Assembly (NCBI RefSeq): GCF_900188225.1
Contig: NZ_FZOC01000007.1
Span: forward strand, 1-64,000
From: Humidesulfovibrio mexicanus
GTDB taxonomy: Bacteria > Desulfobacterota > Desulfovibrionia > Desulfovibrionales > Desulfovibrionaceae
Direction of reading: 5' to 3'
Length of the DNA stretch: 64,000 nt
Shown here: positions 34,333-52,232 of the stretch, one piece after another
Position numbering within the stretch: the first letter of the stretch is position 1
Layout of the letters: every line of letters starts with the position of its first letter
Notes under the pieces: generated by a model
What the model was told of the DNA's origin: nothing
Databases searched by the model: none
Seen by the model: the letters and a program-made list of their open reading frames with translations, nothing else
Position numbers and translations under genes: made by a program

Positions 34333-34397
34333 TTGTTTTTGAACAAGTCCATGTCAACGCGCAGATTGTCAAAAAAGTTACATTAGAGGAGCGCGGA

Positions 34398-35657: not shown

Positions 35658-35721
35658 GCAAAGGCCCCGCCGCGGGCTTCCTCCCTCAACTGTCCAACCG
35701 GCTCAACCGGCAGGAGGCTCC

Positions 35722-37767
35722 ATGCCCGACACCCCCGCACCAGACTCTCCGAGCCTGGCCGGGTTGGCTGCGGCCAATGGACCCTGGCTTGCGGACCGTC
35801 TGTTGCGCCTGGCCTCCCAGGCGGACCTGAACCTTGACCGCGAAGTGGCCCAGGCCGCCGTTGACGGGGCTTCGCGCGTTCTGGCCGGGATTCTTGCCGC
35901 CGAGGGCCGTGCCGCACTGCGCCCGGACGAGAACGCCGACCCGGCCTTCGCCCTTGGCCGCGAACAGGGGCAGGCGCACCGGCAGGCCGGGTTCGACCTG
36001 TCCGCATCGCTGAAGACGCAGCGGCTATTGCGCCGCGCCTACGACGACCTTGTGCGCGAGTCCTGGGTGGAGAAGGATACCCGCTCGCGCGCGCATGAGG
36101 ACGTGGAGCGGTTTTTCGAGCGCGCCCTGGCCGGCTTGGTGGCCGCCTGGACGGGCCATGCCCAGGCGCAGCGCCCCGCGCCCGGCCTCACCGAGCGCCT
36201 GGCCCTGCGCGAGGACCAGCTGCGCCGCGCCATGGACGCGGCCAAAAGGCTCACCACGGCCCTGCGCGAGTCGCGTCAGCGCGCGGAGGTCCTTGCCGCC
36301 GGTCTGGAGCTGGCGCGCGGGCAGGCGGCGGAGCTGCAGGAACGTCTTGCGGCCCGCGAGGCGGCCTGCGAGCGGGAGGCCGCCCAGGCCGAGGCCGAGC
36401 ACGGCGCCGTGAAGGCGCGGGTGGCGGAGCTGCAGGTGGCCCTTGCCGCGCGGGGCCGGGACAGGGAGGAATATGCCGCGGAGGTTCGCGCCCTGCGTGA
36501 GCGGCTCGATTTGGCGCAGGCCGAGGCGCAGGCCGCCCAGGCCGACGCCGACCGCCACGCCGAGGCGCTGCGCGCGGCGGAGCGTCGTGCCCGGGAACTG
36601 AGCATCCAGGCCGAGGCCGGGGGGCGCAGCCTCAAGGAGCAGGAGGCTCTGCTCGCGCGGCTGCGTTCCGAGCGCGCCGCCCTGGCCGACGAGGCCGAGG
36701 CCATGCGCGCCCGCCTGGCCGAGACCGGGTCGCGGCTGGCCGCCGTGCGCGCCGCCGAGGGCGAGGAGGCGTTGAACCGGATTGCGGGCGTCACCGCCGA
36801 GCTTGAGCGGGAGAAGGAGCGCACCGGCTCGCTTTCCACCGAGCTTGAGGCTGTGCGTGGCCGCGCACAGACCCTGGAGGACGCGGCGCGCACCGCGAAC
36901 GCGCGGCTTGATGATGTGCGTCGGAAACGGGATGCGCTCCAAGAGCGCCTGGCCGAGGCCGAGGCGCGCTGCGCGGAGCTGGACAGGGCCCGGTCCGGGG
37001 CGCTGGAGCAAGCGGAGCAGGGGGCGGCTCTGCGCGCGGACCTGGAGCGGGACATGGAGCGCCTGCTGGACGAGGTCGAGGCCGCCACGCGCGGGGAGCT
37101 GGGCCAGTCCCTGGCCGCCTTCATCCGCCTGCCGCAGGAGCTGCTGGACGACCCGGCCACGCCGCCCGGCCAGGCCGCCAAGCTCGCCGACATCCGGGAT
37201 TCCGGCTACCGGCTGGTGAACACGGTGAATCTGGCCGTGGACGTGTTCCGCATGGAGCGCGGGCGGTACCGCCCGCCCGCGGGACGCGGCATGGACCTGG
37301 CCGCGGTCCTGCGGCGCGCCGCAAAGAACCTGGCCTCACAGGCCGCCGCCGCCGGGGTCGAGGTGGCCGTGCAGGTGGACGGCGCGCCCCTGGCGCAGGA
37401 AGCGGCCGTGCCTGCGCCGGGCGATCCCTTGCTGGCCCGCGCCCTGGTGGAACGGCTGCTGTGCGATGCGCTGCACGGCTGCGCATCGGGCGCTGCGCTG
37501 CGGGCCGCCATCGTCCGCATGGAGCGCGGGGCGGCGCTTGAGGTGTCGCGGCCGGGCGTTCTGCCCCCGCAGGAGGCGCAGGACTATTTCGCCAAGCCCC
37601 GGCCCGATGATGCGGACTTCGCCCTGCGCCGCGCTCGGCACGTGTCGCGGCTGTTGGCTCAGGCCCTAGGCGGCTCCCTTGACCTGCGCCAGGAAGACGG
37701 ACGCGTGGTCCTGGCGTTTTCCCTGCCCATGGAGGACGCGGGGCCGGAGTCCGGTCCGGGGAGCTAG
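35722..37767 (+). CDS. Long coiled-coil protein with a degenerate kinase-like C terminus
   Basis: A 681-residue protein of unknown function. A helical N-terminal domain (about 1-150) is followed by an almost continuous Ala/Glu/Arg-rich coiled coil (about 155-470). The C-terminal 200 residues follow the layout of a histidine kinase (a helix at ELGQSLAAFIRLPQELL, then an ATPase-like fold ending ALGGSLDLRQEDGRVVLAFSLP in two parts). I see no phospho-His and no N, G1 or G2 boxes. It may be a scaffold or pseudokinase. It lies downstream of the EAL-HDOD gene. Its TAG overlaps the stop of the convergent transporter gene. Confidence 0.65.
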   Translation: MPDTPAPDSPSLAGLAAANGPWLADRLLRLASQADLNLDREVAQAAVDGASRVLAGILAAEGRAALRPDENADPAFALGREQGQAHRQAGFDLSASLKTQRLLRRAYDDLVRESWVEKDTRSRAHEDVERFFERALAGLVAAWTGHAQAQRPAPGLTERLALREDQLRRAMDAAKRLTTALRESRQRAEVLAAGLELARGQAAELQERLAAREAACEREAAQAEAEHGAVKARVAELQVALAARGRDREEYAAEVRALRERLDLAQAEAQAAQADADRHAEALRAAERRARELSIQAEAGGRSLKEQEALLARLRSERAALADEAEAMRARLAETGSRLAAVRAAEGEEALNRIAGVTAELEREKERTGSLSTELEAVRGRAQTLEDAARTANARLDDVRRKRDALQERLAEAEARCAELDRARSGALEQAEQGAALRADLERDMERLLDEVEAATRGELGQSLAAFIRLPQELLDDPATPPGQAAKLADIRDSGYRLVNTVNLAVDVFRMERGRYRPPAGRGMDLAAVLRRAAKNLASQAAAAGVEVAVQVDGAPLAQEAAVPAPGDPLLARALVERLLCDALHGCASGAALRAAIVRMERGAALEVSRPGVLPPQEAQDYFAKPRPDDADFALRRARHVSRLLAQALGGSLDLRQEDGRVVLAFSLPMEDAGPESGPGS

Positions 37768-38798
37768 GGGCGGCCCTGGTCCGCGCCGCTGCGGACGCCG
37801 TCTGTGCGTTTGCCGTCGTTCCGCCCTTGGCCGGATTGTCCGCTGGCCGCCGTGCGGTTGGCCAGGGCCACGCCGCCAAGCACCATCAGCCCGCCCGCCA
37901 CCAGCGGCAGGCCCACGCCCTCGCCCAGAAGCGCGCAGCCCAGGGCCGTGGCGAACACCGGCACCAGGTTGATGAACACGCTGGCCCGCGCCGCGCCAAG
38001 GGCCAGGATGCCGTCGTAGTACCAGGTGAAGGCCAGGCCCGTGGCCCCCACGCCGAGAAAAGCCATGTTGGCCCAGATGATCCAGTCCGCCGCCAGAACC
38101 TGCCCGGCCAGGCCCGTGGCCAGCGCGGCGGGCAGCAGCATGGCGCAACCCAGCACGCAGGACCAGGTGACCGCGGCAAGCGGCGTGGCGCGGCGCATGA
38201 CGCGTCCGCCTGCGATGGTGTAGGCCGCCCAGGCCGCCACGCAGCCCAGGATCAGCAGGTCGCCGGGGTCGGCACCGTGGGTGAACAGGGACAGCGGGTT
38301 CCCCTCGGACAGGATTACCGACACCCCTGCCAGGGAGAGCGCGATGCCCAGCCCCTTGACCAGCCCGGTGGGCGAGCGCAGCACCAGCCCGGAATACAGC
38401 GCCACGGCCGAGGGCACGCAGGCCACGATCATGGCCGCGCGCCCGGCCGGGATGCGCGCCAGGCCGGAGAAGAACAGCGCGTTGTACAGGAATACGCCCG
38501 TGAAGCCCAGGAAGGCCAGCCCCGGCAGCAGCGCGCGCGGGGGCCGGGGCCAGCGCGTGCGCGACGCATCCGGGGGTGTTCCCCCATGCGCTTGGCCCGC
38601 CTGGCCGCCCAGCTGGGCCGTGGCCCGGCACAGCAGCAGGTACAGGAACGTCGAGGCGAACAGGAAACGCAGGAAGGCCGCCGCAAAGGGCGAAAGCACC
38701 TGCGCCACGTAGCGGCCCGAGACCCAGGTGGCCCCCCACAGGGCCATGGAGCCCACAAGCTTGGCGTAGACGGCCAGCCCCGGCCGCGCGGCGCTCAC
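37764..38798 (-). CDS. DMT-family (EamA) transporter
   Basis: A 344-residue inner-membrane protein with about ten hydrophobic segments arranged as two EamA repeats. The first repeat includes SMALWGATWVSGRYVAQ and the second GATGLAFTWYYDGILALGAA. Members export amino acids or metabolites. The substrate is unknown. It starts at a GTG that overlaps the stop of the cyclase gene (GTGA), indicating coupled translation. The tail is hydrophilic (RNDGKRTDGVRSG). Confidence 0.85.
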   Translation of the reverse strand: MSAARPGLAVYAKLVGSMALWGATWVSGRYVAQVLSPFAAAFLRFLFASTFLYLLLCRATAQLGGQAGQAHGGTPPDASRTRWPRPPRALLPGLAFLGFTGVFLYNALFFSGLARIPAGRAAMIVACVPSAVALYSGLVLRSPTGLVKGLGIALSLAGVSVILSEGNPLSLFTHGADPGDLLILGCVAAWAAYTIAGGRVMRRATPLAAVTWSCVLGCAMLLPAALATGLAGQVLAADWIIWANMAFLGVGATGLAFTWYYDGILALGAARASVFINLVPVFATALGCALLGEGVGLPLVAGGLMVLGGVALANRTAASGQSGQGRNDGKRTDGVRSGADQGRP

Positions 38799-39460
38799 GG
38801 CCGGGCCTCCGGGCCGTGGATCTCGGCCACGGCGCGCACGGGCGAGCCATCGGCCCCGAACACCGGCAGGCACCAGAAGCGGAAGCGCTTCCCGGCCAGC
38901 TGCGCCAAGCCGCGCAGGTTCTCCACAATAATGCACCCGGCCCCCAGCAGCGCCCGGTGCGCGGGCAAGTCCCGCAAATCCGCCGCATCCGCGGAGCCCG
39001 CGTCCAGGCCCACGCCCTTGAGCCCGGGGAGCGCCGCCAGCAGGGCCGCGGCCTCGGGCGTCAGGTGCGCCCCGGCCGTGTAATAGTCCGCCCCGCCCCA
39101 GCGTTCCTCGTCGCCCGTGGACAGCAGCACGAACTCCGCCCCGGCAAGACCCGCCAGGCGCGGGGCCAGGTCCGCCGCCGTCACGGCCAGGCTCGGCCGG
39201 GCGCGCAGGTCCAGCAGCGCGCCGGGGCCGCGGAAGCGCTCCGGGGGCAGGTCCGAGAGCATGGGCGCGCCCGGCAGCACATGCCCCGGCGCGTCCACGT
39301 GGGTGCCGCTGTGCAGGGGCAGGCTGGCCAGGTGCGACAGAAAGCCGTCCGGCCCGTAGGCTCCCAGGGGCGCCAGCGCCAGGGGCGGGTCGTCGGGAAA
39401 CATGGCCATGCCCGGCCGCAATGGCCAGGAGAGGTCCACAAGGCGGGGGCAGGCGTCCAT
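38795..39460 (-). CDS. Cyclase-family metal-dependent hydrolase (kynurenine formamidase-like)
   Basis: A 221-residue enzyme of the cyclase/KynB family with the metal-binding motif HSGTHVDAPGH and a second conserved segment GLDAGSADAADL. Members hydrolyse amides or lactones; substrate cannot be read from sequence. I start it at the ATG at 39460, preceded by GGAG, rather than 21 codons upstream. It is co-translated with a DMT transporter, which may move its substrate or product. It is divergent from the GAK operon. Confidence 0.85.
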   Translation of the reverse strand: MDACPRLVDLSWPLRPGMAMFPDDPPLALAPLGAYGPDGFLSHLASLPLHSGTHVDAPGHVLPGAPMLSDLPPERFRGPGALLDLRARPSLAVTAADLAPRLAGLAGAEFVLLSTGDEERWGGADYYTAGAHLTPEAAALLAALPGLKGVGLDAGSADAADLRDLPAHRALLGAGCIIVENLRGLAQLAGKRFRFWCLPVFGADGSPVRAVAEIHGPEARP

Positions 39461-39489
39461 GGGGCGGCAATACTCCGGTCCGTGCGGCC

Positions 39490-39545
39490 TGGCAATGCCC
39501 TTGCCCCTTTGCCAGACCTTCACCCCGGCGTGACGGCCGCGTCAC
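39490..39545. promoter_or_regulatory. Dyad resembling a sigma-54 promoter, plus an operator-like palindrome, before the GAK operon
   Basis: TGGCAATGCCCTTGCC (39490-39505) has GG and GC exactly 10 bp apart, as in -24/-12 promoters, and would start transcription near 39516. It is also an inverted repeat (GGCAA-N5-TTGCC), so it reads similarly on the minus strand and could instead be a repressor site. A second palindrome, GTGACGGCCGCGTCAC (39530-39545), lies downstream in the presumed leader. Confidence 0.45.
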
Positions 39546-39611
39546 ACTTCCGGTCGCGCTTTCCGCTACCACAGGGCTCGACGCACCAACGACCCTCCAA
39601 GGAGCACGCCC

Positions 39612-40136
39612 ATGGCACGCGACGACACCAAGATCGAGATCATTCTCCAGGCCGAGGAGACCACGGTTCTGCTCAGGGCATTGGCCGACGGCTTCCGTCA
39701 CGCGGTCCAGCCCGACGCCTTGAAGGTCATCGCCCCGCATCTTGCGGCCTGCTCCAAGCTGGAGCTCTCCGTCAAGCAGCTGGGCGGCATGGCCGAACTC
39801 AAGCTCAAGGCCAAGGGCGTGCCCCGCCCCGGCGAGGAAGAGGGACAGGGCGACAGCTACAAAGCCATCAAGAAGCGCATGAAGACCAGCTTCAAGTTCC
39901 TCCAGCACAGCCTGGACGCCCTCACCCTGCCTCCGGCCGAGGTGGTGGACGCCTTCCTCAAGGACTCCCTGGCCATGTGCGCCCACCCGGATCGGGGAAG
40001 CGCCGACTACGGGCCGTACCTCCAGGTTTTGAACGGCTTCAAGGCCGCCTGCGACAACAGGGACCGCGCCGCCGCCGCCCAGGCCCTGGAGGAGCTGAAC
40101 GCCTCCAAGAAGGCCTGCCACGCGGTGGCCAAATAA
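39612..40136 (+). CDS. XXXCH-domain protein of the GAK system
   Basis: A 174-residue helical cytoplasmic protein. The C terminus, NASKKACHAVAK, matches the XXXCH domain defined for the GAK system, a cytochrome c'-like helix that has kept the final Cys-His but lost the first Cys of CxxCH. So covalent haem is unlikely. It is the first gene of the operon, with an AAGGAG site. Its role is unknown; a modified substrate or carrier is possible. Family names are from memory of the TIGRFAM GAK set. Confidence 0.8.
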   Translation: MARDDTKIEIILQAEETTVLLRALADGFRHAVQPDALKVIAPHLAACSKLELSVKQLGGMAELKLKAKGVPRPGEEEGQGDSYKAIKKRMKTSFKFLQHSLDALTLPPAEVVDAFLKDSLAMCAHPDRGSADYGPYLQVLNGFKAACDNRDRAAAAQALEELNASKKACHAVAK

Positions 40137-40144
40137 GGAGCGGC

Positions 40145-41371
40145 ATGAAGATGAAGCAGCAACGAAGCGCGGCTCGCCTCGCCAAGGGAGACTCGGCCAA
40201 GGACGCGCCCGCCGGAACGCTCTCGGCCGGTGACTGCGCCTGCGCCGAGGCGGAGGCCCTCCGGGGCGGCCTGGGCCCGGAGCCCACAGAGGAGGACGAG
40301 CGCGCGTTCGCGGCCATCACCGCCACGGCCCTTACGGACGAGGAGCGGGAGCGCATCGCCCGGCCCGCCGTGGTGCTGCCCCGGCAGGAGCGCGTGCTGG
40401 CCGTGCACTGGCACCCGGAATTCGTGCCCATGGAGCTCATCCGGCGGCGCATCGAGGCCACCTTCCCCGGCTGCGCCCAGGGGTTGTTCATCCCCACCCA
40501 GCACAACCAGATCCTTTCCTACGACGCCTATTGCGGGGTGGAGGTGGACTGCTATTCCAGCGGCTTCAACCAGAAGGTGCAGCTGCTCGTCCATTTTCGG
40601 GCCGACCGCCAGGACAAGGCCGGGGTGCTGGCCTCCATGCTGGCGCACACGGCCCGCTACCGCTCCTCGCAGCTTTTCGAGTTCCTGGACGTGCTGGCCG
40701 GGCGCGACGAGGAGCGCCTGAACCGCGTGGCCGCCGAGACCGGCGCGGCGGAAGAGACCATCCGCTTCGCGCGCATCCATGCCCGCAAACTCTCCGCCCT
40801 GCTGGAGCGCCACGCGGGCGACGTGCCGCTGGAGACCCTCAAGAACAAGCTGGTGCGCGGCTTTCTGGACGCCCAGCGCCCGCGCTTTGGCGACCGGCTG
40901 GTGACCCGCGTGCAGTCCTTCGCCCAGGCGGTGAAGCTGCGCGTCAAGGCCCAGTTCCCCATGCAGTATTTCTACCGCGCCTCGGAGGTCATCGAGGAGG
41001 CGCGGGGCTTTGGCGCGGGGGTGGTCATTCCGCACCCGGAGCAGTTCTGGCCCATTCTTCTGGCCGACTACGACGTGGACGGCTACGAGGTCTGGAATCC
41101 GCAGTCCCAGCGCTACACCGAGTTCCTCATCGACACCCTGGCGCGCAAGAACCGCAAGGGCTGGACCGACCGCAGGCAGCTCGTGTTCATGGGCGACGAC
41201 ACCCACATGAGCGAGAAGATCAGGAACCCCGACCAGGCCTCGGACAAGGTGCTGCGCGAAATCGGCGTGCAGAGCGCCTGGGACGACATCGGCATCCGCA
41301 AGCGCCTGCTCGCCTCGGGCATGGACCGCGCCTGCGTCATCAACGAATACACCGCCCGGCTCGACGGCTAG
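40145..41371 (+). CDS. PHP-like putative metal-dependent hydrolase in the GAK operon
   Basis: A 408-residue protein that I place tentatively in the PHP phosphoesterase superfamily. The ordered motifs are VHWHPE (H-x-H), IPTQHN, YCGVEVD, LLVHF, VIPHPEQ, DGYEVWN and GDDTH. They follow the usual PHP metal-ligand series, though the Asp of the second motif is Gln here. An N-terminal acidic region of about 75 residues is poorly conserved in appearance. There is no signal peptide. It starts 8 bp after the XXXCH gene, with AAGGAG. It could hydrolyse a phosphate ester made by the GAK kinases (inference). Confidence 0.65.
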   Translation: MKMKQQRSAARLAKGDSAKDAPAGTLSAGDCACAEAEALRGGLGPEPTEEDERAFAAITATALTDEERERIARPAVVLPRQERVLAVHWHPEFVPMELIRRRIEATFPGCAQGLFIPTQHNQILSYDAYCGVEVDCYSSGFNQKVQLLVHFRADRQDKAGVLASMLAHTARYRSSQLFEFLDVLAGRDEERLNRVAAETGAAEETIRFARIHARKLSALLERHAGDVPLETLKNKLVRGFLDAQRPRFGDRLVTRVQSFAQAVKLRVKAQFPMQYFYRASEVIEEARGFGAGVVIPHPEQFWPILLADYDVDGYEVWNPQSQRYTEFLIDTLARKNRKGWTDRRQLVFMGDDTHMSEKIRNPDQASDKVLREIGVQSAWDDIGIRKRLLASGMDRACVINEYTARLDG

Positions 41372-41396
41372 GCCAAAGCCCAAAAAGGAGCGCCCC

Positions 41397-41669
41397 ATGC
41401 CCACAGACGGCAAGTTCGAGTTCGATTCCGTTCAGGACGAGAAAAGCATCCAGGCCTTTCTGGCCGCCCTTACCGAGGGCTTCGGCAAGGGACGCGTTGT
41501 GCTCAGGAGCGAGGCCGACGAGATCGTGCTGAGCCCCTCCAGTCTGGTGAGTTTTTCGGTGAAGGCCAAGCGCAAGGACGGCGAGAGCAAGATGACCATC
41601 AAAATCGGCTGGAAGGACGCCAAGAATCCCGCGGCCGGGGCCGAGCGCTCCATCCGCGTGGAATCCTAG
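41397..41669 (+). CDS. Amphi-Trp domain protein (GAK system)
   Basis: A 90-residue protein that is almost entirely an amphi-Trp domain: FEFDSVQDEKSIQAFLAALTEGF, in two parts, followed by alternating hydrophobic strands and the hallmark Trp in MTIKIGWKDA. The domain is small, beta-rich and of unknown function. It is strongly associated with the GAK genes. AAAAAGGAG precedes the start, and the next gene follows in 12 bp. Confidence 0.8.
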   Translation: MPTDGKFEFDSVQDEKSIQAFLAALTEGFGKGRVVLRSEADEIVLSPSSLVSFSVKAKRKDGESKMTIKIGWKDAKNPAAGAERSIRVES

Positions 41670-41681
41670 GGGCGGCCCGGC

Positions 41682-43358
41682 ATGATGACCTTCGAGGGGC
41701 TTGAGGAGAACTTCACCTTCATGGTGGCCGAGGTGGAGCGGCAAGTGCGCGCCACCCTGGCCTTCCTCGACGCGCCCAGCCACAGCCTCTACGACCATAT
41801 CGTGGGCCGCGACGACTACATCGACAACCTCAAGACCGTCATCGAGAACAAGTGCTACGGCCGGTTTCATGATGACGCGGCCGGGCGCGGGCCGGACAAG
41901 GCCAGGGCCAACCGCGTGCGCGCCATCCAGGTGATGTGCGTGAACCTGGAGCGCGTGGCCGACTTCTGCGTGAACATCGTGCAGCAGACCAACTACCTTA
42001 CCGACCACGGCTTTCTGCACACCTACGCCTACCGCGAGATGTTCGCCGAGATCGAGGGCTGCCTGTCGCGGGTGCTGCCCGCCTTCCAGCAGGCCGACAT
42101 CTCCGGCGCGCTCTCCGTGTGCCGTTCGGAGTACGGACTGGACCGGCTCTACAAGGTGGGCTTCGACCGCATCATGGGCGAACTGCGCACGGGCAAGAAC
42201 GTGCAGAACCTCATCACCGTGCTGTTCATCTTCCGCTACCTGGAGCGCATCGGCGACGCGCTTCTGAACGTGGGCGAGGCGCTCATTTTCTCCATCCTGG
42301 GCGAGCGCATCAAGATCGAGCAGTTCGAGGCCCTGCAGCAGACCCTGACCAAGACCGGCTTTCCCGGCGGGCTTTCGGGCGTGGACTTCAAGGCCATCTG
42401 GGGCACGCGCAGCGGCTGCCGCATCGGCCGGGTGGATTCGCGCCCGGAGCTGGCCGAGGGCGACACCGGCGGCCCCGGCGTGGACCCGCTGGGCAGCATC
42501 TACAAGGAGGGCGCCAGGGCCAAGATCGTGGCCGAAAAGGCCGGGTTGGAGCTTTGGGCCAAGACCTATCCCGGCCTGGTGGCGGCGGTCTACGGGTATC
42601 ACGAGGAAGGGGACAAGGCCTCGCTCCTGGTGGAGTTTCTGCCCGGCTGCAACATGGACGAGGTGCTGCTCACCTCCGGCGAGGATGTGCTGCAGAACGC
42701 CCTGTTCATTCTGACCCAGACCGTGCAGGACATCTGGGAGACCAGCAGGAGCCGCCGGGAGGTTCCGGCGGCCTTCATGGCCCAGCTCAACGCGCGTCTG
42801 GATTCCGTGCTGCAGATCCACCCCGGCTTTACCCGGCCGGATGCGGACATCTGCGGCTGCGCCGCGCCCGGCACCCGCGCCCTCATGGAGGCCTGCGCCG
42901 AAGCCGAGAAGGAGCTCTTCGCGCCCTTCTCAGTGCTCATCCACGGCGATTTCAACGTGAACAACCTGGTCTACAACCACCAGACCCAGCGCCTGCACTA
43001 CCTGGACGTGCACCGTTCGCGCCCGGGCGATTATGTGCAGGACGCAAGCGTGTTCCTGGTGTCCAACTACCGGATGCCCGTGTTCGAGCCGCCCCTGCGC
43101 GAGCGCATCCACTGGATCATGGCCGAGTTCCTGGCCTTCGCCAGGGCCTTCGCCAAGGAATCGGGCGACGCCGCCTTTGAGGCGCGCATGGCCCTTGCCC
43201 TGGCGCGCTCGCTGTTCACCTCCACGCGTTTTGAACTCAACCCGGCCTTCTCCCGCGGCATGTGCCAGCGGGCGCACTACCTCATGGAGCGCGTGGCCGA
43301 ACACCGGGGCCGCCCCTGGGAGGACTTCGTCCTGCCCGAGGCCGTGCTCTTCAGCTGA
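41682..43358 (+). CDS. PhoU-like/aminoglycoside-phosphotransferase-like fusion kinase
   Basis: A 558-residue fusion. Residues about 1-215 are PhoU-like helices (NRVRAIQVMCVNLERVADFCVNI, IFRYLERIGDALLNVGEALIF). Residues about 220-558 resemble the APH small-molecule kinase fold. The catalytic loop is LIHGDFNVNN (His421, Asp423, Asn428 region) and a following metal-binding Asp lies in YLDVHRSRPGD. PhoU domains contact phosphate-sensing proteins, so phosphate state may gate a kinase. The substrate is unknown. It sits inside the GAK operon with 12-bp gaps on both sides. Confidence 0.8.
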   Translation: MMTFEGLEENFTFMVAEVERQVRATLAFLDAPSHSLYDHIVGRDDYIDNLKTVIENKCYGRFHDDAAGRGPDKARANRVRAIQVMCVNLERVADFCVNIVQQTNYLTDHGFLHTYAYREMFAEIEGCLSRVLPAFQQADISGALSVCRSEYGLDRLYKVGFDRIMGELRTGKNVQNLITVLFIFRYLERIGDALLNVGEALIFSILGERIKIEQFEALQQTLTKTGFPGGLSGVDFKAIWGTRSGCRIGRVDSRPELAEGDTGGPGVDPLGSIYKEGARAKIVAEKAGLELWAKTYPGLVAAVYGYHEEGDKASLLVEFLPGCNMDEVLLTSGEDVLQNALFILTQTVQDIWETSRSRREVPAAFMAQLNARLDSVLQIHPGFTRPDADICGCAAPGTRALMEACAEAEKELFAPFSVLIHGDFNVNNLVYNHQTQRLHYLDVHRSRPGDYVQDASVFLVSNYRMPVFEPPLRERIHWIMAEFLAFARAFAKESGDAAFEARMALALARSLFTSTRFELNPAFSRGMCQRAHYLMERVAEHRGRPWEDFVLPEAVLFS

Positions 43359-43370
43359 CGGGACGCATCC

Positions 43371-44273
43371 ATGACGGCACATACGAACCATTCCGCCCCC
43401 CGGCTGGCCGTGGTGGGCGTGCGCGGGGGCTGGTCCTCCGATCTGCTGGCCCGGCGCGCGGCCGAGGCCACGGGCTGCCAGCCGCTGGTCATCGAGCTGG
43501 AGCGCCTGAGCCTGGACCTTGGGACCGGCCGCGCCCTGTACGAGGGCCTGGACCTCTCCCGCTGCGGCGGGCTCCTGCTCAAGAAACTGGGGCCGGAGTA
43601 TTCGCCCGGCCTGCTGGACCGGCTGGAGATGCTGCGCTTTCTGGAAGGGCGCGGGGTGCGCATGTTCTCGCGCCCCGGAGCTGTGGCGGGCCTGCTGGAC
43701 CGGCTGGCCTGCACCACCACCATGGTCCTGGGCGGGGTGCCCATGCCGCCCACCACCGTCACCGAGGACCTGGACGCGGCCCAGGCCGCGGTGGAGGCCT
43801 ACGGCGAGGCCGTGCTTAAGCCGCTGTACTCCACCAAGGCCCGCGGCATGATGGTGCTGCGGCCCGGGCCCGGCCTGCGCGCGGCGCTGGAGGGCTATCT
43901 TCGCGCGCAGGGCTTCTTCTACATCCAAAAGACTGTTGTCCTGGGCGAGCGCGACCTGGGCGTGGTGTTTCTGGGCGGGCAGTACCTGACCACCTATTCC
44001 CGCCGCCGCCAGCCCGGCGCGTGGAACACCACCACGGCCTCGGGCGGGCGCTACGAGCCTTTCGACCCCCCGCGGGAGGTCGTCGACCTGGCCTGGAGGG
44101 CGCAGAACCTTTTCGGCCTGGACTTCACCTGCGTGGACGTGGCCCTGACCGACAACGGCCCGCAGGTGTTCGAGGTGTCGGCCTTCGGGGGCTTCCGGGG
44201 CATTCTGGAGGCCAGGGGCCTGGACGCCGCACAATTGTACGCGGAGTACGCCGCGGGGAGGATCGACGCATGA
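43371..44273 (+). CDS. GAK-system ATP-grasp enzyme (RimK-like)
   Basis: A 300-residue ATP-grasp ligase. The nucleotide-binding Lys lies in AVLKPLYSTKARGM. A Mg-binding segment is VDVALTDNGPQVFEVSAFGGF, read in two parts, where E-V-S-A-F-G-G-F replaces the E-V-N-x-x-P-G of RimK. Such enzymes join a carboxylate to an amine or thiol through an acyl phosphate. The acceptor here is unknown. Its stop overlaps the start of the kinase gene (ATGA). Confidence 0.85.
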   Translation: MTAHTNHSAPRLAVVGVRGGWSSDLLARRAAEATGCQPLVIELERLSLDLGTGRALYEGLDLSRCGGLLLKKLGPEYSPGLLDRLEMLRFLEGRGVRMFSRPGAVAGLLDRLACTTTMVLGGVPMPPTTVTEDLDAAQAAVEAYGEAVLKPLYSTKARGMMVLRPGPGLRAALEGYLRAQGFFYIQKTVVLGERDLGVVFLGGQYLTTYSRRRQPGAWNTTTASGGRYEPFDPPREVVDLAWRAQNLFGLDFTCVDVALTDNGPQVFEVSAFGGFRGILEARGLDAAQLYAEYAAGRIDA

Positions 44274-45421
44274 GCAGGCACACGTATGTCATGAGCGCCC
44301 TGGCCGAGATGCTGGGCGGCGGCGCGCCGGCCCCGCACTCGCTCTTTCTGGATCTGGGCGACTGCCGCATGGAGGTGCGCTCCAACTCCGCTGCGCTGCT
44401 TCAGGCGCTGGACGCCTACTTCGGCGGCTTTGTGGCCGCGCCCGGCCCGGCGCAGGTGGCCGTCACCGCGCTGGAAGGACCGGCCCCCAACGTTCCCCTG
44501 GAGCTGGCGGTGAAGGAGCCCGACCCCGGCAAGACCAAGGTGAAGGAGGAGTTCGCCGACCTGCCCGGCGGGCGGCTGGTGCGCAAGGCCCTCACCGGCA
44601 TGGTGTTCCTCTTCGGCAAGGAGTTGAATCTGGCCATGGGCCCCTGCCTTGCGAACGCCAACCAGGTGGTGAACTTCATCAACAACCGCTACATCGAGCA
44701 CAAATTGCGCCAGGGCTGCCTGCTCGGACACGCGGCGGCCGTGGCCCACCTCATGGCCGACCCCGCCGGGGGGCGCCTGCGGGGACTGGCCCTGTGCGGC
44801 TTTTCCGGCGCGGGCAAAAGCACCCTGGCTATGCATGTCATGAGCCGGGGCGCGCTGTTCGTCAGCAATGACCGCTTGCTGGTGCAGCCCGGCCAGGCCC
44901 CCGGCCATGGAAACGGCCGCCCGGCGGCGCAGGGGGCGGCCGGACTGCGCATGTTCGGCATCCCCAAGCTGCCGCGCATCAACCCCGGCACCGCCCTGAA
45001 CAACCCGCACCTGGCCGCCGTTGTGCCGGAAGAAGACCGCGAGCGTTTTTCCGACCTCCCGGCCGACGAGTTGTGGGAGCTGGAGCACAAGTACGACGTG
45101 TTCCTGGACGCCTGCTTCGGGGAGGGGCGCTTCGTGCTCCAGGCCCCCATGGACGGGCTGGTGGTGCTCAACTGGCGGCGCGGCGGCGGCGAGACCTCCA
45201 TCCGCTTCGTCGATGCGGCCGAGCGGCCGGACCTGCTGCCCGCGTTCATGAAGGCCGCCGGGCTGTTCGCCCTGCCGATGAACGGCGACGCGGCCTGGCG
45301 CGACCCGGACCAGTCGGCCTATGCGGAGCTGCTGTCCCGCTGCGACCTTGTCGAGGTCTCCGGGGGCGTGGATTTCGGCCGCGCGGCGGACTTCTGCATC
45401 GAATACCTTGTGCACGGCTAG
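44270..45421 (+). CDS. HprK-related kinase B (GAK system)
   Basis: A 383-residue kinase related to HPr kinase/phosphorylase. The P-loop is GFSGAGKST (177-185), followed by LFVSNDRLLV, where HprK has its metal-binding Asp. Residues 1-170 are an extra N-terminal region. HPr itself is not encoded nearby, so the target may be one of the small GAK proteins. The ATG overlaps the previous stop. Confidence 0.85.
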   Translation: MSRHTYVMSALAEMLGGGAPAPHSLFLDLGDCRMEVRSNSAALLQALDAYFGGFVAAPGPAQVAVTALEGPAPNVPLELAVKEPDPGKTKVKEEFADLPGGRLVRKALTGMVFLFGKELNLAMGPCLANANQVVNFINNRYIEHKLRQGCLLGHAAAVAHLMADPAGGRLRGLALCGFSGAGKSTLAMHVMSRGALFVSNDRLLVQPGQAPGHGNGRPAAQGAAGLRMFGIPKLPRINPGTALNNPHLAAVVPEEDRERFSDLPADELWELEHKYDVFLDACFGEGRFVLQAPMDGLVVLNWRRGGGETSIRFVDAAERPDLLPAFMKAAGLFALPMNGDAAWRDPDQSAYAELLSRCDLVEVSGGVDFGRAADFCIEYLVHG

Positions 45422-45434
45422 GCAGGGGGCGAAC

Positions 45435-46622
45435 GTGGCCAAGACCTGGATCCGCCGCGAGGTGGAGATTCCCAATCACATGGCCCTGGCGCGGCTGGAG
45501 AAGTGCCCGGAGCTGGGGCCCCGGGTGCTGTTCTTCAGCGGGGGCACGGCCCTGCGCAGAACCAGCGCCCGGCTGGTGCACTACACGCACAACTCCGTGC
45601 ACGTGGTTACGCCCTTCGACTCCGGCGGCAGCTCGGCCAAGCTCCGGCAGGCCTTCAACATGCCCGCCGTGGGCGACATCCGCAACCGGCTTATGGCCCT
45701 GGCCGACCAGAGCCTGCGCGGCAACCCGGAGATTTTCGCGCTCTTCGCCCACCGCCTGCCCAAGGCGACAGGCGGCCAGGACGAGCTGCGCCGCGAGCTG
45801 GACCGCATGGTGCGCGGCAGGCACGAACTGGTGGCGGGCATTCCCGACCCCATGCGCAAGATTGTGCGCAACCATCTGGCCATGTTCCAGCAGAACATGC
45901 CCGACAGCTTCGACCTCTCAGGGGCGAGCATCGGCAACCTGGTGCTGGCCGGGGGGTATCTGGCCAACCGCAGGCACCTGGATCCGGTGATCTTCATGTT
46001 CTCCAACCTGGTGCAGGTGCGCGGCACCGTACGCCCTGTGGTGAACAAGAACCTGCACCTAGCCGCGGAATTGGCCGACGGAGCCCTTGTGGTGGGCCAG
46101 CACCGCATGACCGGCAAGGAGACGGCCAGACTCTCCCAGCCCATCGCCCGCCTGTTTCTCTCCGACGAGACCGGCCGCCCGGTGGAACAGCCCATCCGCG
46201 ACAAGATGCGCGGCCTCATCGCCTCGGCCGAGCTCATCTGCTACCCCATGGGCAGCTTCCATTCCAGCCTGCTGGCCAACCTGCTGCCGCGCGGGGTGGG
46301 CCAGGCCGTGGCCGGGGCCTCCTGCCCCAAGGTCTACGTGCCCTCCACCGGGGACGACCCGGAATGCCTGGGCCTGGGCGTGGCCGACCAGGTGGAGCGC
46401 CTGGGCCAAACCCTCATGGCCGACGCCCCCGGCATCCGCCTGTGCGACGTGCTGCACTACGTGCTGGTGGACTCGCGCCACGGGCAGTACCCCGGCGGGC
46501 TGGACGTGCCGCGCATACGGAACCTGGGCGTGGAGGTCATCGACTGCCCGCTCATCGGCTACGGCGCCAGCACGGACATCGACGACCGTTTTCTCGCGCC
46601 CATTCTGCTTTCCCTGGCGTGA
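45435..46622 (+). CDS. CofD-related protein (GAK system)
   Basis: A 395-residue protein of the CofD/YvcK superfamily. It shows FFSGGTALR and VTPFDSGGSSAKLR near the N terminus and SAELICYPMGSFHSSLLANLLP later, in two parts. CofD joins a phosphate-containing group to the deazaflavin Fo, whereas YvcK relatives have regulatory roles. Which applies here is not known. I chose the GTG at 45435, preceded by an AGGGGG site, over a start 38 codons upstream that overlaps the kinase gene. Confidence 0.85.
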   Translation: MAKTWIRREVEIPNHMALARLEKCPELGPRVLFFSGGTALRRTSARLVHYTHNSVHVVTPFDSGGSSAKLRQAFNMPAVGDIRNRLMALADQSLRGNPEIFALFAHRLPKATGGQDELRRELDRMVRGRHELVAGIPDPMRKIVRNHLAMFQQNMPDSFDLSGASIGNLVLAGGYLANRRHLDPVIFMFSNLVQVRGTVRPVVNKNLHLAAELADGALVVGQHRMTGKETARLSQPIARLFLSDETGRPVEQPIRDKMRGLIASAELICYPMGSFHSSLLANLLPRGVGQAVAGASCPKVYVPSTGDDPECLGLGVADQVERLGQTLMADAPGIRLCDVLHYVLVDSRHGQYPGGLDVPRIRNLGVEVIDCPLIGYGASTDIDDRFLAPILLSLA

Positions 46623-46666
46623 CCACAACGCCGCTGCACCACGTAACCCGACAGATGGAGGTGGCT

Positions 46667-47191
46667 ATGGACAAGGACAAGATCGAGATGAAGGCCGTGA
46701 TGGAGACCGCCGCCGTGGCCGACTACCTGGAGGCACTGGCCAGGGGGTTCAAAAAGGGACAGATCACCGTTGAAAAGGGCGGCGAAAGCCTGACCCTCAT
46801 CCCGGTGGAGACCGCCGAGGTGGAGGTGGAGGCCCGCGTCAAGAAGGATAAGGCCCGCTTTTCCCTGGAGGTGACCTGGCGCGTGGCTCGCGAGCAGGAT
46901 GACCCAACGGCCCTGCGCATCAGCGCCGAGGCCTCGGTGGGCGCGGGCAAGGACGGCCCCGCCAAGGCCCTTGAAAAGAAGGACCGCAAGGAGGAGGACA
47001 AGACGTCCGATGCGAAGCCTGCGGCCAAGCCCGAGGCCAAGCCTGCGGCCAAGCCTGCGGCCAAGCCTGAGGCCAAGCCTGAGGCCAAGCCTGAAGAAAA
47101 GAACGCCGCGATCCCCGCCGCCATCCCGTCTTCCGGCCCGGCTGTCTCCCCTGCTTCCGGCCCGGCCACGAAGCCCGCGCCCAAGGCCTAG
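46667..47191 (+). CDS. Second amphi-Trp domain protein with Lys/Pro/Ala repeat tail
   Basis: A 174-residue protein. The N-terminal 85 residues are an amphi-Trp domain (ADYLEALARGFKKGQITVEKGG in parts, FSLEVTWRVA). The tail is a low-complexity run of K-P-E/A-A units coded by a 12-bp tandem repeat (47021-47092), then a Pro/Ser-rich end. Such tails behave as flexible or charged tethers. The ATG at 46667 has GGAGGT in front; an ATG 12 bases upstream is an alternative. It closes the GAK operon. Confidence 0.75.
   Translation: MDKDKIEMKAVMETAAVADYLEALARGFKKGQITVEKGGESLTLIPVETAEVEVEARVKKDKARFSLEVTWRVAREQDDPTALRISAEASVGAGKDGPAKALEKKDRKEEDKTSDAKPAAKPEAKPAAKPAAKPEAKPEAKPEEKNAAIPAAIPSSGPAVSPASGPATKPAPKA
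47021..47092 (+). repeat. Six-copy 12-bp tandem repeat
   Basis: Six units of gcggccaagcct or gaggccaagcct (first unit ending ccc) are arranged head to tail and encode A/E-A-K-P. Copy-number change by slippage would stay in frame. Confidence 0.85.
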
Positions 47192-47218
47192 ACGCCGGAC
47201 TTCCCCCTTCGACCCTGC

Positions 47219-47250
47219 CCCCGCCCATCGGCCCTGCGCCGGGGGCGGGG
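47219..47250. terminator. Hairpin between the GAK operon and the PHP-glycosyltransferase gene
   Basis: CCCCGCCC (47219-47226) pairs with GGGCGGGG (47243-47250). It lies between convergent genes and has no T-run, so it is only a probable terminator. Confidence 0.5.
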
Positions 47251-47357
47251 TTCGTCGTATCGCCGCGCCAGCGTCCCGGAACCGTGCGGCCCCGGAGCCC
47301 GGCGCGCTGCCGGAGTCCGGGGCCTGGAGGAAGGAGGCGGGGCTGGAGAGTCGTTGC

Positions 47358-49913
47358 CTATGCCGCGCGGGCCTGCTGCCCGGCGGGACCGCCCGCGTCC
47401 GGGCGCACAGGGCCGGGCCGGGGGCCGGAAGGCGGGCCCGGCTGGAACGTCGGCGTGGTGTCGGCCTCGCCGCGCACCGTGCTGGCGTAAATGTCCCAGG
47501 TGCGCAGGAAGGCCTGGTCAAAGGAGGTCTGGGCCGCGTGCTTGCGGGCCAGCACGGCCATGTCGGCCAGACGCTGACGGTCCAGCATCAGGTCCAGCAC
47601 GCTCATGGCCAGGGCGGCCGGGTCGCCGGGCTCCACCACAAGTCCGGTGCGGCCCGGCTGCATGGCCTCGCGCGGGCCGCCAGCGCTGGTCACCACCACG
47701 GGCAGGCCGCTGGCCTGCGCCTCCAGCACCACGTTGCCGAAGGTGTCCGTTGCCGAGGGGAACACGAAGAGATCCGACCCGGCGTAGGCCTGGGCCAGGG
47801 CCTCGCCCGAGAGATAGCCGGTGAAGACCACGGGCAGGTCCGCCGTGGCCGCGCGCATCTCCTCCAGGTACGGCCCGTCGCCCACCACCACCAGCCGGGC
47901 GTCCGGGCGGTGGGCGTGCACCAGGCGGAAGGCCTCGGCCAGCACGTCCAGGCTTTTTTCGCGCGACACGCGGCCCACGTACAGCAGCTTGAACTGCCGT
48001 TCCAGGCCCAGGTCGCGGAAGAAGGCGCCTTGCCTGTCCGGGCGGAAGCGTTCGGCGTCCACTCCGCGCGGGTGCACCACGATGCGCTCCGCGCCGATGC
48101 CGCGCTGGGCCAGGTCCTGGGCGGTGCTGCGGCTGGGGGCGTAGATCGTGTCCATGCTGCCGTAGAACCAGCGCATGTAGCGCCAGGCCGTGTCCTCCAT
48201 GGCCGGGTCCTCGGTGAACATGCGCACGTACTCCGGGAAGGCGGTGTGGTAGGTGCCGTGCACGGGGATTTTGAGGATGCGCGCGATGGCCAGCCCGGCC
48301 AGGCCCATGGGGCCGGGGGTGGCGGTGAGGATGCAGTCGAAGTCCTGCTCCGCGCACCAGGCGAGCAGCTTCAGGAACGGCGGGTAGTGCAGGGCGATCT
48401 CCGGATACTCCGGCAGCTGGAACGAGCCGATGGGCGCGAAGCGGGCCGCGCCGGGGCCCAGGTCGTCCGCCTCCAGCCCGGCCCCGCACGTGACCACGGT
48501 CATGTCCTTGCCGTGCTTTTCGGCCAGGGCGATTTGTTGCTGGATGGTGCGGGCCACGCCGTTGACCTCGGCGAAGGTGTCGGTGAAATGGGCCATCTTG
48601 AGGCCGCCGGGCTTGTGCCGAGCCGGCGCGTGGCCGAATGCCTCCAGGCACTGCCGGGCGAAGGCCCGCTCCGAGGCGAAGAGCCCGCAGGAGATGAGGA
48701 AGGGCGAGAGCATGGCGTAGAGCGAACCGGCCTGGGCCACCTCGTGCAGCAGGCCGAAGATGTCCGCGCGCTGCACGGCCGCCAGCGTGCGCCCGGCGAA
48801 GCGCGCAAGCATCCTGTCGGCCACGCGGGACACGAAGCGCCGCCAGGAGTCTTCGGGCTTTGCCGAAGCGTTGCGGCCCCGCGCGGCGTCCAGCATGGCC
48901 GCATCGGCGCGGATGACCCGCCCGGCCTCGGCCAGCAGCATGGCGCTGGTGGAGTTCTTGTCCGCGGCAAGGGAGAAGGCGGCCAGCCGGGCGCGGTCGG
49001 CCAGGGCGCGCAGCCTGTGCCCGAAGCCTCTGGGCCGCCTGGCGCGGGGGTCGAGCAGGGCGTTGGCGTAGCGCAGGCACAGATGGCTTTCCGGCAGCCT
49101 GCCCGCGCGGCTCTTGTAGAACTGGTAGGCGATGCCGCACAGGTTGTGGGCCATGTTCCAGGGGGTGGCGGCCTCGCCCTGCACCAGGCCCTCGCCAGCG
49201 GCCAGGCCTCTAAGCAGGGTGTTCACCGTGGCCGGGCCGGGGAAGCTGGTGTGCATCCGGGCGATGCCCAGGGACGAATGGTCGTCGCTGCCGGCCACCA
49301 GCGCCTTTTCCCAGGGCGTGTCGCCGAAGGGGGCGATGCCGTGCTTGCAGGCCAGACGTTCCACGTCCTCGCGGCCAAGCCCGCCCACGATGCGGCGCAG
49401 GGCCCGGTTCTGGCCCTCGTCGCGCGAGCCGTTGAGCTCCAGGACGTTGAAGAGCAGGAGCGCCTGCTCGAAGTGCTCCGCGGTGAGCTTGCCGTTGACC
49501 GCGAAGAGCGGGTGCGCCAGCACATGCACGATGCCCTGGGCGCGCAGATAGGGGACCAGCTCGAACACGTCCCCGCGCACGCGCTGGATGTCCGCGTGCT
49601 GGGCCTCGGTGATGTCGTAGGCCAGCACGTGCAGCTTGCAGCGGTCCTCGGGGAAGTAGGTGGTGATCTCCTCGCTGACGAAGGCGCCGGGCAGGTGGGC
49701 GATCTCCAGGGCCCCGGCGATGGTGTTGTGGTCGGTGATGGTGACGAGCCCCATGCCCAGCGCCCGGGCGGTGTCGTAAATAGTGCGCGGGGCGGTGAAG
49801 CTCTCCGGGCAGCCCATGCGCTGGAGCACCCATTGGGAGGGCCGCGTGGAGTGGCGCGAGTGCACGTGCAGGTCGATGCAAAAGCGCTGACGGTCGGCTG
49901 CTGTTTCTGTCAT
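47358..49913 (-). CDS. PHP domain fused to a GT4 glycosyltransferase
   Basis: An 851-residue fusion. Residues about 1-280 are a PHP metal-dependent phosphoesterase-like domain (IDLHVHSRHS, ITDHNTIAGALE, VLAHPLF, GSDDHSS). A helical middle (about 290-440) follows. Residues about 450-830 are a GT-B family 4 glycosyltransferase (MAHFTDTFAEVNGVARTI, LYVGRVSREKSLDVLAEAF, the nucleotide-sugar site SATDTFGNVVLEAQASGLP). It may make a glycolipid or glycan and trim a phosphate in the same pathway. No transport or lipid genes are adjacent. The ATG at 49913 opens the PHP domain. Confidence 0.88.
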   Translation of the reverse strand: MTETAADRQRFCIDLHVHSRHSTRPSQWVLQRMGCPESFTAPRTIYDTARALGMGLVTITDHNTIAGALEIAHLPGAFVSEEITTYFPEDRCKLHVLAYDITEAQHADIQRVRGDVFELVPYLRAQGIVHVLAHPLFAVNGKLTAEHFEQALLLFNVLELNGSRDEGQNRALRRIVGGLGREDVERLACKHGIAPFGDTPWEKALVAGSDDHSSLGIARMHTSFPGPATVNTLLRGLAAGEGLVQGEAATPWNMAHNLCGIAYQFYKSRAGRLPESHLCLRYANALLDPRARRPRGFGHRLRALADRARLAAFSLAADKNSTSAMLLAEAGRVIRADAAMLDAARGRNASAKPEDSWRRFVSRVADRMLARFAGRTLAAVQRADIFGLLHEVAQAGSLYAMLSPFLISCGLFASERAFARQCLEAFGHAPARHKPGGLKMAHFTDTFAEVNGVARTIQQQIALAEKHGKDMTVVTCGAGLEADDLGPGAARFAPIGSFQLPEYPEIALHYPPFLKLLAWCAEQDFDCILTATPGPMGLAGLAIARILKIPVHGTYHTAFPEYVRMFTEDPAMEDTAWRYMRWFYGSMDTIYAPSRSTAQDLAQRGIGAERIVVHPRGVDAERFRPDRQGAFFRDLGLERQFKLLYVGRVSREKSLDVLAEAFRLVHAHRPDARLVVVGDGPYLEEMRAATADLPVVFTGYLSGEALAQAYAGSDLFVFPSATDTFGNVVLEAQASGLPVVVTSAGGPREAMQPGRTGLVVEPGDPAALAMSVLDLMLDRQRLADMAVLARKHAAQTSFDQAFLRTWDIYASTVRGEADTTPTFQPGPPSGPRPGPVRPDAGGPAGQQARAA

Positions 49914-49938
49914 GCTGGTCTCGCGGCGGCCGTGGGCG

Positions 49939-50292
49939 TCAGGCGCAGCGCGGCAGCGGGCCGCGCTCCCGGTCGGACTGGCAGTGCACGCACAGCCGCG
50001 CCGTGGGGTTGGCGAAAAGCCGCGCCAGGGCGATGTCCTCGCCGCAGTCCTCGCACACGCCGTAGGTCCCGGCGTCCATGCGGGCAAGGGCCTCCTCTAT
50101 CTCGGCGCGCCGGGCCTCCATGCGGCGGCGCAGCACCAGCTGCATCCCCACCTCCACCACGCGGGAGGCGTACTCGTTTTCATCGGCGCAGGCGTCGAGC
50201 CGGGTGGCGTCGTCCATGTCCGGGTCCGGGGCGACAGGGGGCATGAGTCCGTTCAGGGCGTCCATCAACTGCTGGCGAAGGTTCGTCTGCAT
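49939..50292 (-). CDS. DksA/TraR-type zinc-finger protein
   Basis: A 117-residue protein with a helical N terminus and a C-terminal C4 zinc finger (CEDCGEDIALARLFANP, then CVHC). DksA-like proteins bind RNA polymerase and tune transcription with ppGpp. It is shorter than E. coli DksA. The start at 50292 follows GGAGG. It sits 25 bp before the PHP-glycosyltransferase gene on the same strand. Confidence 0.88.
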   Translation of the reverse strand: MQTNLRQQLMDALNGLMPPVAPDPDMDDATRLDACADENEYASRVVEVGMQLVLRRRMEARRAEIEEALARMDAGTYGVCEDCGEDIALARLFANPTARLCVHCQSDRERGPLPRCA

Positions 50293-50540
50293 GGCGTGTC
50301 CTCCTGGTTTGGCGGAAGGCCCGGCTGTACCGCCGAGCATGAAGACGGCTATCACGCGCCCGGCGGGCCGTGGTTACCGTGCCGTTACGCCAGGGGAACA
50401 AGTGCGCGGCTTCGAGGCGGAGCGGCGAGACCCCGGAGCGAAGCGGGAGTCGGGGCGGCGTTGCCTTGGGAGCGCCTTTGGGCTAGCGTTGCGCCATGCC
50501 GTCGGCAGAAAGCCGCCACCGTTCGAGCCAGGAGGAGCCC

Positions 50541-51242: not shown

Positions 51243-51285
51243 GCGCACCCGCGCAGTCCCGGCACGCGCCCCGGAGGGGACGCCC

Positions 51286-52017: not shown

Positions 52018-52202
52018 AGCATTCCGCCCTTGAAGATGAGGCGGGTGGCCAGTTCGTCGGCCTGTTCGGCCAGGTCCATGAGCTTCTCCAGGTATTCGAG
52101 GATGGCGTGCCGACGGGCCTCGTCCCCGTTTTCGAAGTCAAAGGTCAGGTCGCCGGAGCTGAAGTACTGTTCGAGCTTGTCCAGGTAGGCGGAGTCGAGC
52201 AT
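51984..52202 (-). CDS. Small acidic conserved-type protein
   Basis: A 72-residue acidic helical protein (MLDSAYLDKLEQYFSSGDL, ILEYLEKLMDLAEQADELATRL in parts) with no motif I recognise. It follows rlmH by 30 bp on the same strand and overlaps the convergent rsmG end. Codon usage looks like that of its neighbours and the ATG is well placed, so I think it is real. Confidence 0.65.
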   Translation of the reverse strand: MLDSAYLDKLEQYFSSGDLTFDFENGDEARRHAILEYLEKLMDLAEQADELATRLIFKGGMLQTLSNSSNQK

Positions 52203-52232
52203 TGTCGCGTCCTTTGGCCGTGGGGGGCCGTT

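Follow-up and report, generated by a model that had tools for sequence, protein, structure and literature searches.

The window analysed here is a 64,000-nucleotide stretch of Humidesulfovibrio mexicanus (contig NZ_FZOC01000007.1, positions 1 to 64,000 of the forward strand), and it carries at 39612-47191 eight closely packed genes on one strand that form a cassette of the GAK system:

39612..40136, + strand: XXXCH protein, 174 amino acids (TIGR04358)
40145..41371, + strand: PHP-like protein, predicted phosphoesterase, 408 amino acids (structure prediction)
41397..41669, + strand: amphi-Trp protein 1 (type 1), 90 amino acids (TIGR04354 and type-1 motif counts)
41682..43358, + strand: PhoU domain fused to an APH-type kinase, 558 amino acids (Pfam)
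43371..44273, + strand: GAK ATP-grasp enzyme, RimK/LysX/MptN-like, 300 amino acids (TIGR04356)
44270..45421, + strand: HprK-related kinase B, 383 amino acids (TIGR04355)
45435..46622, + strand: CofD-related GAK protein, nearest YvcK/UPF0052, GTG start, 395 amino acids (TIGR04357)
46655..47191, + strand: amphi-Trp protein 2 (type 2), 178 amino acids (TIGR04354)

The intergenic gaps, from the first gene to the eighth, are 8, 25, 12, 12, -4, 13 and 32 base pairs (bp). A complete eight-gene GAK operon with these ends had been proposed in an earlier sequence-only reading, and all of its genes were found as described. When the hidden Markov model search was run, six of the eight proteins exceeded the curated NCBIfam cut-offs for the GAK and amphi-Trp families to which that reading had assigned them, namely XXXCH (TIGR04358, 77.4 bits, cut-off 40), amphi-Trp 1 and 2 (TIGR04354, 71.8 and 68.3 bits, cut-off 31), the ATP-grasp enzyme (TIGR04356, 399.5 bits, cut-off 300), the HprK-related kinase (TIGR04355, 484.4 bits, cut-off 200) and the CofD-related protein (TIGR04357, 540.5 bits, cut-off 340). 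All five GAK models, TIGR04354-TIGR04358, are over their cut-offs in this single operon, and the PHP and PhoU-APH genes matched no GAK-specific NCBIfam model. The window cassette is a member of the already named, uncharacterised GAK system, with a gene order much as in its relatives. It is not a chance assembly, because the same families recur in related loci in much the same order. The sequence-only reading knew of no reported substrate or product, and no study of the system was found in a literature search confined to one open-access library. A second, diverged copy with XXXCH, PHP, amphi-Trp, PhoU-APH, grasp and HprK genes is present on contig C3 of this genome, and neither a CofD-related gene nor a second amphi-Trp gene was found there. 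A match to HprK_rel_A in this genome falls inside the second HprK_rel_B and was discarded as a separate gene. In locus L033 (G049:C21), the HprK_rel_B of the second copy there contains one in-frame TAG.

The distribution of the GAK families was surveyed in 150 genomes drawn from Desulfovibrionales. In these, grasp_GAK was found above its cut-off in 79 genomes from 24 genera (94 genomes from 26 genera at E<=0.001), and HprK_rel_B in 71 (81 at E<=0.001). All 71 HprK-positive genomes are grasp-positive and none of the 71 grasp-negative genomes has HprK_rel_B above the cut-off, leaving eight of the 79 grasp-positive genomes without HprK by this measure; the co-occurrence expected for this order is thus borne out, with the reservation that the genomes are related to one another and Fisher values overstate their independence. 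Amphi-Trp proteins are above the cut-off in 97 genomes, including 79/79 grasp-positive and 18/71 grasp-negative ones. CofD_rel_GAK is matched in 134 genomes (131 above the cut-off), and 57 of the 71 grasp-negative genomes carry a CofD-related match at E<=0.001. At the level of the phylum, grasp is above the cut-off in 20 of 296 genomes, and five of these belong to the same family as the window. As for viral carriage of GAK, none of 16 pattern matches to the grasp enzyme in viral contigs was confirmed. In one genus of the order scan (g2), no genome has a grasp or amphi-Trp match, and HprK gives nothing more than weak matches below the cut-off in G102 and G126, yet 26 of the 29 genomes retain CofD_rel_GAK.

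Of at least 519 stretches that were confirmed, the best 80 were taken as related loci. They are mostly Desulfobacterota by title, the others being titled Zixiibacteriota, Eisenbacteria, Nitrospirae, Nitrospina, Phycisphaerae, Alphaproteobacteria, Hahella and others, although the titles of bins may be wrong. Four loci (L034, L035, L039 and L041), which are duplicates or non-GAK, were excluded from the gene clusters and from the PhoB-box scan described below. Locus content was counted in those 50 of the best 80 loci in which the grasp gene has 4.5 kb or more of sequence on each side. Near grasp, PhoU-APH was present in 49 loci, amphi-Trp in 48, HprK in 46, PHP in 44, CofD in 38 and XXXCH in 31, the last being a divergent family whose non-detection may be a miss. 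Amphi-Trp, PhoU-APH, grasp and HprK occur together in 46 of the 50 loci, and all seven families in 29. In many sulfate reducers, and in bacteria of other kinds, the GAK genes are inherited tightly together as a cassette. A variant cassette was found in four loci (L107, L115, L118 and L122, titled Alphaproteobacteria, Labrenzia, Roseibium and Hahella), in which no PHP, CofD or XXXCH gene was detected. Its order is PhoU-APH, grasp and HprK, followed by histidine phosphatase, metallophosphoesterase and amphi-Trp genes, with Nudix genes nearby; these genes were identified by Pfam scan in L115 and L122 and by similarity only in L107 and L118, L107 being very like L115.

The second gene, whose product matched no NCBIfam (E<=0.01) or Pfam (E<=0.05) model, was approached through structure prediction. 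The AlphaFold 2 (AF2) model of residues 46-408 (window 40280-41368, 363 of 408 residues) has a predicted local distance difference test score (pLDDT) of 91.3. Searching the PDB by sequence with the PHP profile returned nothing at E<=1, but the fold search did match, with a Foldseek E of 5.2e-6 to 3e0f, and structure comparison gave Z 16.8 to 3o0f (245 residues, 3.5 A), 16.2 to RNase AM (9etk) and 15.2 to CV1693 (2yb1). The metal-type residues HxH, H, E and DDxH are invariant across 48 relatives. Thus, with a predicted fold like that of RNase AM and CV1693 (Z 15-17) and the same PHP-type His, Glu and Asp residues, the protein is likely a PHP-fold phosphoesterase near these two enzymes, from which it differs in a long predicted helical insert as well as in sequence. 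Phosphate may therefore be removed as well as added by the cassette. The title of the source paper for CV1693, as given in the reference list of PMC9410882, announces the discovery of a 3',5'-nucleotide bisphosphate phosphatase.

The ATP-grasp enzyme has LysX/RimK-type ligases as its nearest solved structures (best E 2.7e-23), and the Pfam RimK domain is over its cut-off (35.1 against 21 bits). Its next-best families are MptN (107.2 bits, cut-off 350) and RimK (TIGR00768, 83.7 bits, cut-off 143.4), neither of which is reached. In contrast to RimK, LysX and MptN, in which the alignment displays EVN, the GAK enzyme has Ser270 in place of the Asn, and also TT in place of TN; the EVS is invariant in 24 of 24 aligned members. 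RimK-type ligases act on a protein terminus and LysX-type ligases on a carrier protein, and the GAK enzyme might likewise add amino acids to the termini of XXXCH or amphi-Trp proteins, with the kinases activating or regulating the reaction. The kinship with these ligases and the conserved C-terminal Cys-His of XXXCH agree with such a peptide or protein modification, which we nevertheless regard as unlikely given the sub-threshold RimK score, the invariant EVS and the 19 of 50 loci with enough flank in which XXXCH was not detected.

The CofD-related protein matches the Pfam CofD domain (127.4 bits), a family that also includes YvcK-type proteins. Its next-best curated model is YvcK (TIGR01826, 115.6 bits, under the cut-off of 196), and of its five PDB matches at E<=1e-3, two are named UPF0052, which we take to be the YvcK family, three are uncharacterised and none is named CofD. 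Judged by these matches, YvcK is a closer relative of the protein than the F420 transferase is. The sequence-only reading had called it a CofD-like transferase; the family match stands, and the transferase role is weakly supported because YvcK is nearer and the gene is common in genomes without GAK. The same observations bear on a cofactor pathway resembling F420 side-chain assembly, in which a kinase would make a phospho-acid, a CofD-type enzyme would transfer it and the ligase would add glutamate. The occurrence of a Pfam CofD domain and an MptN-like ligase in one operon fits this scheme, but with YvcK as the next-best model, no PDB match named CofD and CofD not detected in 12 of the 50 loci, it is disfavoured and appears improbable.

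XXXCH is predicted to consist of two parts, an amphi-Trp-like N-terminal domain (about residues 1-70) and a four-helix bundle (about 83-171) ending in a terminal KxxCH. The AF2 model (mean pLDDT 81.5, predicted template modelling score 0.63, the N-terminal half being less sure) has strands and helices followed by four helices. The N-terminal domain aligns with amphi-Trp in hhalign (probability 88, E 3e-6, 64 columns), and a weak Pfam Amphi-Trp match occurs in 8 of 43 XXXCH members. For the bundle, the profile search of the PDB placed cytochrome c' (E 0.011) after five de novo proteins, and weak Pfam matches to b562 and c' were seen in 3 and 2 of the 43 members, respectively. A structure comparison confined to the bundle half gave Z 10.4 over 96 residues to c'/b562 and a higher Z of 11.5 to de novo bundles, in a range (below about 13) that can reflect a common helix arrangement. 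Foldseek returned no match to XXXCH at E<=0.001; at E 0.03 and above it listed two Kuenenia complex chains and several cytochromes c', with probability up to 1.00, many of the top rows being long proteins with low TM-scores.

In one member, the terminal Cys-His aligned on the CxxCH of c' in a single pairwise alignment (E 0.33). The motif end is strongly conserved, with Cys in 38 and His in 39 of 39 sequences (4 further rows of the 43 end early), but unlike c' and b562, XXXCH has KxxCH in place of CxxCH, the position of the first heme Cys being Lys in 33 and Arg in 4 of the 39, and it is fused to the amphi-Trp-like domain. The bundle looks, on predicted structure and alignment, like a decayed cytochrome-like domain; it is not classed as a cytochrome because of the Lys/Arg at the first Cys and a Z within the common-bundle range. 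A sensing module for heme or gases, built around XXXCH and acting through the enzymes, would account for the c'/b562-like bundle and the register of the Cys-His with the c' heme motif. The substitution of the first heme Cys in 37 of 39 sequences, the Foldseek result and the loci in which XXXCH was not detected speak against it, making it highly improbable.

Both kinases retain kinase motifs. PhoU-APH carries a Pfam PhoU domain (PF01895, 69 bits, cut-off 23.5), narrowly exceeds the EcKL cut-off (23.6 against 22) and falls just under that of APH (20.9 against 23.2), while the full-length PhoU model TIGR02135 is not reached (77.9 against 130.25). The APH motif HGDxNxxN and Asp442 are kept in at least 97% of 79 relatives. 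In HprK_rel_B, the P-loop GxxGxGKST and an NDR motif are kept (82 relatives), and the P-loop stretch matches HPr kinase structures at E 7.1e-6. Of the acidic pair of HPr(Ser) kinase, HprK_rel_B retains one Asp along with the P-loop, the first residue of the DD being Asn, and the HPr kinase models TIGR00679 (16.9 against 240 bits) and Pfam Hpr_kinase_C (18.9 against 33.3) are not reached.

Amphi-Trp proteins were divided into type 1 and type 2 by our own motif rule. When both types are taken together, Lys60 and Trp72 are the only positions conserved at 90% or more, and none is a Ser, Thr or Tyr; phosphorylation or conjugation of a small protein, one of the two targets offered by the sequence-only reading, is possible but gains no specific support from this. 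Ser/Thr17 occurs in 49 of 53 type-1 sequences and in at most 4 of the other 40. The amphi-Trp profile found only de novo or seemingly unrelated proteins in the PDB. The C-terminal tail of amphi-Trp 2 (window 46900-47191) is rich in Ala, Pro and Lys and repeat-like. In a control genome, that of the haloarchaeon Haloferax volcanii, amphi-Trp is above the cut-off, grasp_GAK is below it and HprK_rel_B has no match.

These proteins also allow a protein relay like that of HprK with HPr or Crh, which is the strongest rival to the small-molecule cycle proposed below and which we consider possible. In such a relay, HprK_rel_B, or perhaps PhoU-APH, would phosphorylate Ser/Thr17 of type-1 amphi-Trp, the PHP protein or another enzyme would remove the phosphate, and phospho-amphi-Trp would signal to the YvcK-like protein, echoing the Bacillus subtilis operon yvcI-yvcJ-glmR(yvcK)-yvcL-crh. 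The P-loop match, the YvcK-like partner within the cassette, the 90 residues of amphi-Trp 1, close to the size of HPr, and the prevalence of Ser/Thr17 in type 1 all suit this idea. Moreover, in seven genomes of genus g6 (G069, G078, G084, G091, G093, G105 and G114), a second HprK_rel_B adjoins CofD_rel_GAK away from grasp, possibly as a separate pair. The B. subtilis operon, with its HprK, likewise combines a YvcK-like protein, an HprK-like kinase and small partners, and its yvcI, presumably a Nudix gene, has a counterpart in the variant cassette. The likeness is one of analogy, as GAK adds ATP-grasp, PhoU-APH and PHP proteins, and no HPr or Crh is found among the cassette genes, HPr not having been searched genome-wide. 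An excerpt of PMC6171935 includes crh in the glmR operon. On the other side, HprK_rel_B scores far below the HPr kinase model, ATP-grasp, Nudix and PHP are left unexplained, and no phosphosite is shared between the amphi-Trp types. Ser/Thr17 fits a helix cap equally well, and all 3 type-1 proteins encoded in loci that lack a detected HprK still have Thr17 (one of these genomes, G032, has HprK elsewhere), so the residue was set aside as a phosphosite candidate.

The neighbourhood of the cassette in its relatives points to phosphate. A pstS, pstB or separate phoU gene lies in the fetched flank of 11 of the best 80 loci, where about 0.7 would be expected (P 2e-10; P 8e-6 if 2 are expected) at an assumed background of 1.5 pst clusters per 4 Mb. 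Thirteen loci had been flagged, of which L048 and L105 were dropped, their 'PhoU' being a piece of the PhoU-APH gene, while L112 stays through pstS. The matches of L053 and L087 are at the locus edges, L053 has a weaker pstS match (1e-36), and L079 may be related to L099. For pstS, pstB and phoU alike, representatives score above the respective NCBIfam cut-offs. In L076 and L098, phoU lies 110 and 218 bp, respectively, upstream of XXXCH on the same strand, as measured from profile edges, and in L043, outside the 80-locus count, pstB (391 bits, above the cut-off) and phoU are upstream on the same strand. In L069, L077, L079, L097, L098 and L099, a regulator has PhoB as its best family match, each time below the PhoB cut-off. 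In the order survey, a strong pstC match lies within 25 kb of grasp in 9 of the 79 grasp-positive genomes against about 1.1 expected, and these genomes fall in 4 of 24 genera against 0.32 expected (P 3e-4); the distances comprise 123 rows in 119 genomes, with 127 genomes tallied and a few missing. The flank and pstC tests share one case, L043 being one of these nine genomes (G002). Overall, pst-phoU genes lie near the cassette more often than these expectations predict, but the link is not seen in this genome. In seven close relatives (L046, L047, L048 and L050-L053), an OlsF-like ornithine-lipid synthase gene lies upstream on the same strand, the one representative scanned being below the cut-off, and no OlsF-like gene was seen among the ten window proteins scanned.

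This comparison with relatives suggests that the widespread cassette helps cells to handle or sense phosphate. Our preferred reading, to which we give a probability of about 0.38, is that GAK is a phosphate-coupled cycle that makes and breaks a phosphorylated small molecule, with the amphi-Trp proteins as partners. PhoU-APH, in which a kinase of the small-molecule type is joined to a phosphate-regulon domain, the HprK-related kinase and the ATP-grasp enzyme would build a phosphorylated and ligated small molecule in the cytoplasm, the PhoU domain carrying a phosphate signal. The PHP phosphoesterase would break it down, a role that might be taken in one lineage by the products of the histidine phosphatase, metallophosphoesterase and Nudix genes. 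Amphi-Trp proteins, including XXXCH as a variant, may act as binding partners or effectors. The YvcK-like protein may tie the cycle to nucleotide-sugar or carbon status, YvcK being described in an excerpt of PMC5482804 as binding UDP-sugars.

This reading is built on which genes are present and how they are ordered, on their family matches, co-occurrence, active-site motifs and predicted folds, and, in some relatives, on pst-phoU and PhoB-like neighbours. A small-molecule cycle coupled to phosphate status would fit the combination of kinases with several kinds of phosphoesterase, including Nudix enzymes in the variant, and with a PhoU domain; the conserved kinase motifs of HprK_rel_B and APH agree with it, as do the predicted PHP fold and its invariant metal-type residues. 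The usual substrates of Nudix enzymes are small phosphate compounds.

Several observations weigh against the phosphate-coupled cycle. No pst or phoU gene was found in the fetched flank of 69 of the 80 loci, many of these flanks being short, and in 70 of the 79 grasp-positive genomes a strong pstC is absent from the 25 kb around grasp. For the present genome, the closest strong pstC in the list lies 62 kb away from the second copy, on a contig other than the window's, and window 34001-54000 yielded neither pstS nor pstB. PhoB-box-like sites (at most 2 mismatches) lie upstream of 32 of 76 cassettes against 24% of random stretches of unmatched composition, a weak enrichment, and the site of the window copy has 3 mismatches. 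The enrichment of pst genes itself depends on an assumed background rate. Furthermore, HprK enzymes typically have proteins as their substrates, and the chemistry of the ATP-grasp enzyme is unsure because its Mg-ligand position is altered. A bolder version of the cycle, which would make GAK a hitherto unrecognised phosphate-status pathway of bacteria, seems doubtful. Its product would be a messenger or reserve compound, diffusible and highly phosphorylated, formed under control of the PhoU-domain kinase and read by amphi-Trp proteins, and in anaerobes the cytochrome-like XXXCH protein would contribute a redox or heme signal.

If true, the phosphate-coupled cycle would represent a new arm of bacterial phosphate physiology, in which PhoU itself is still poorly understood. 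With a phosphate link, a small-molecule cycle, a defined set of enzymes and a swap-in variant, the hypothesis is concrete enough to make GAK chemistry testable. Mutants of Desulfovibrio alaskensis in pst, phoR, olsF and agt fare worse at low phosphate, according to an excerpt of PMC5193443, and such a phosphate test is therefore feasible in a sulfate reducer. The sequence-only reading had the families and their co-occurrence right and missed the PHP phosphoesterase, the two domains of XXXCH and the phosphate-uptake genes near relatives. These three points, together with the YvcK affinity and the variant cassette, are added here, and none was found in print in the one library searched.

The cassette is flanked by two genes on the opposite strand. 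The divergent upstream gene (window 38798-39523, - strand) is arylformamidase-like, below the cut-off. The convergent gene just 3' of the cassette (window 47358-50087, - strand) encodes a protein with a C-terminus like GT4-type glycosyltransferases, below the cut-offs, and a homologue of it has PHP-like motifs at its start, as judged by eye. The cluster of this gene is present in 17 loci.

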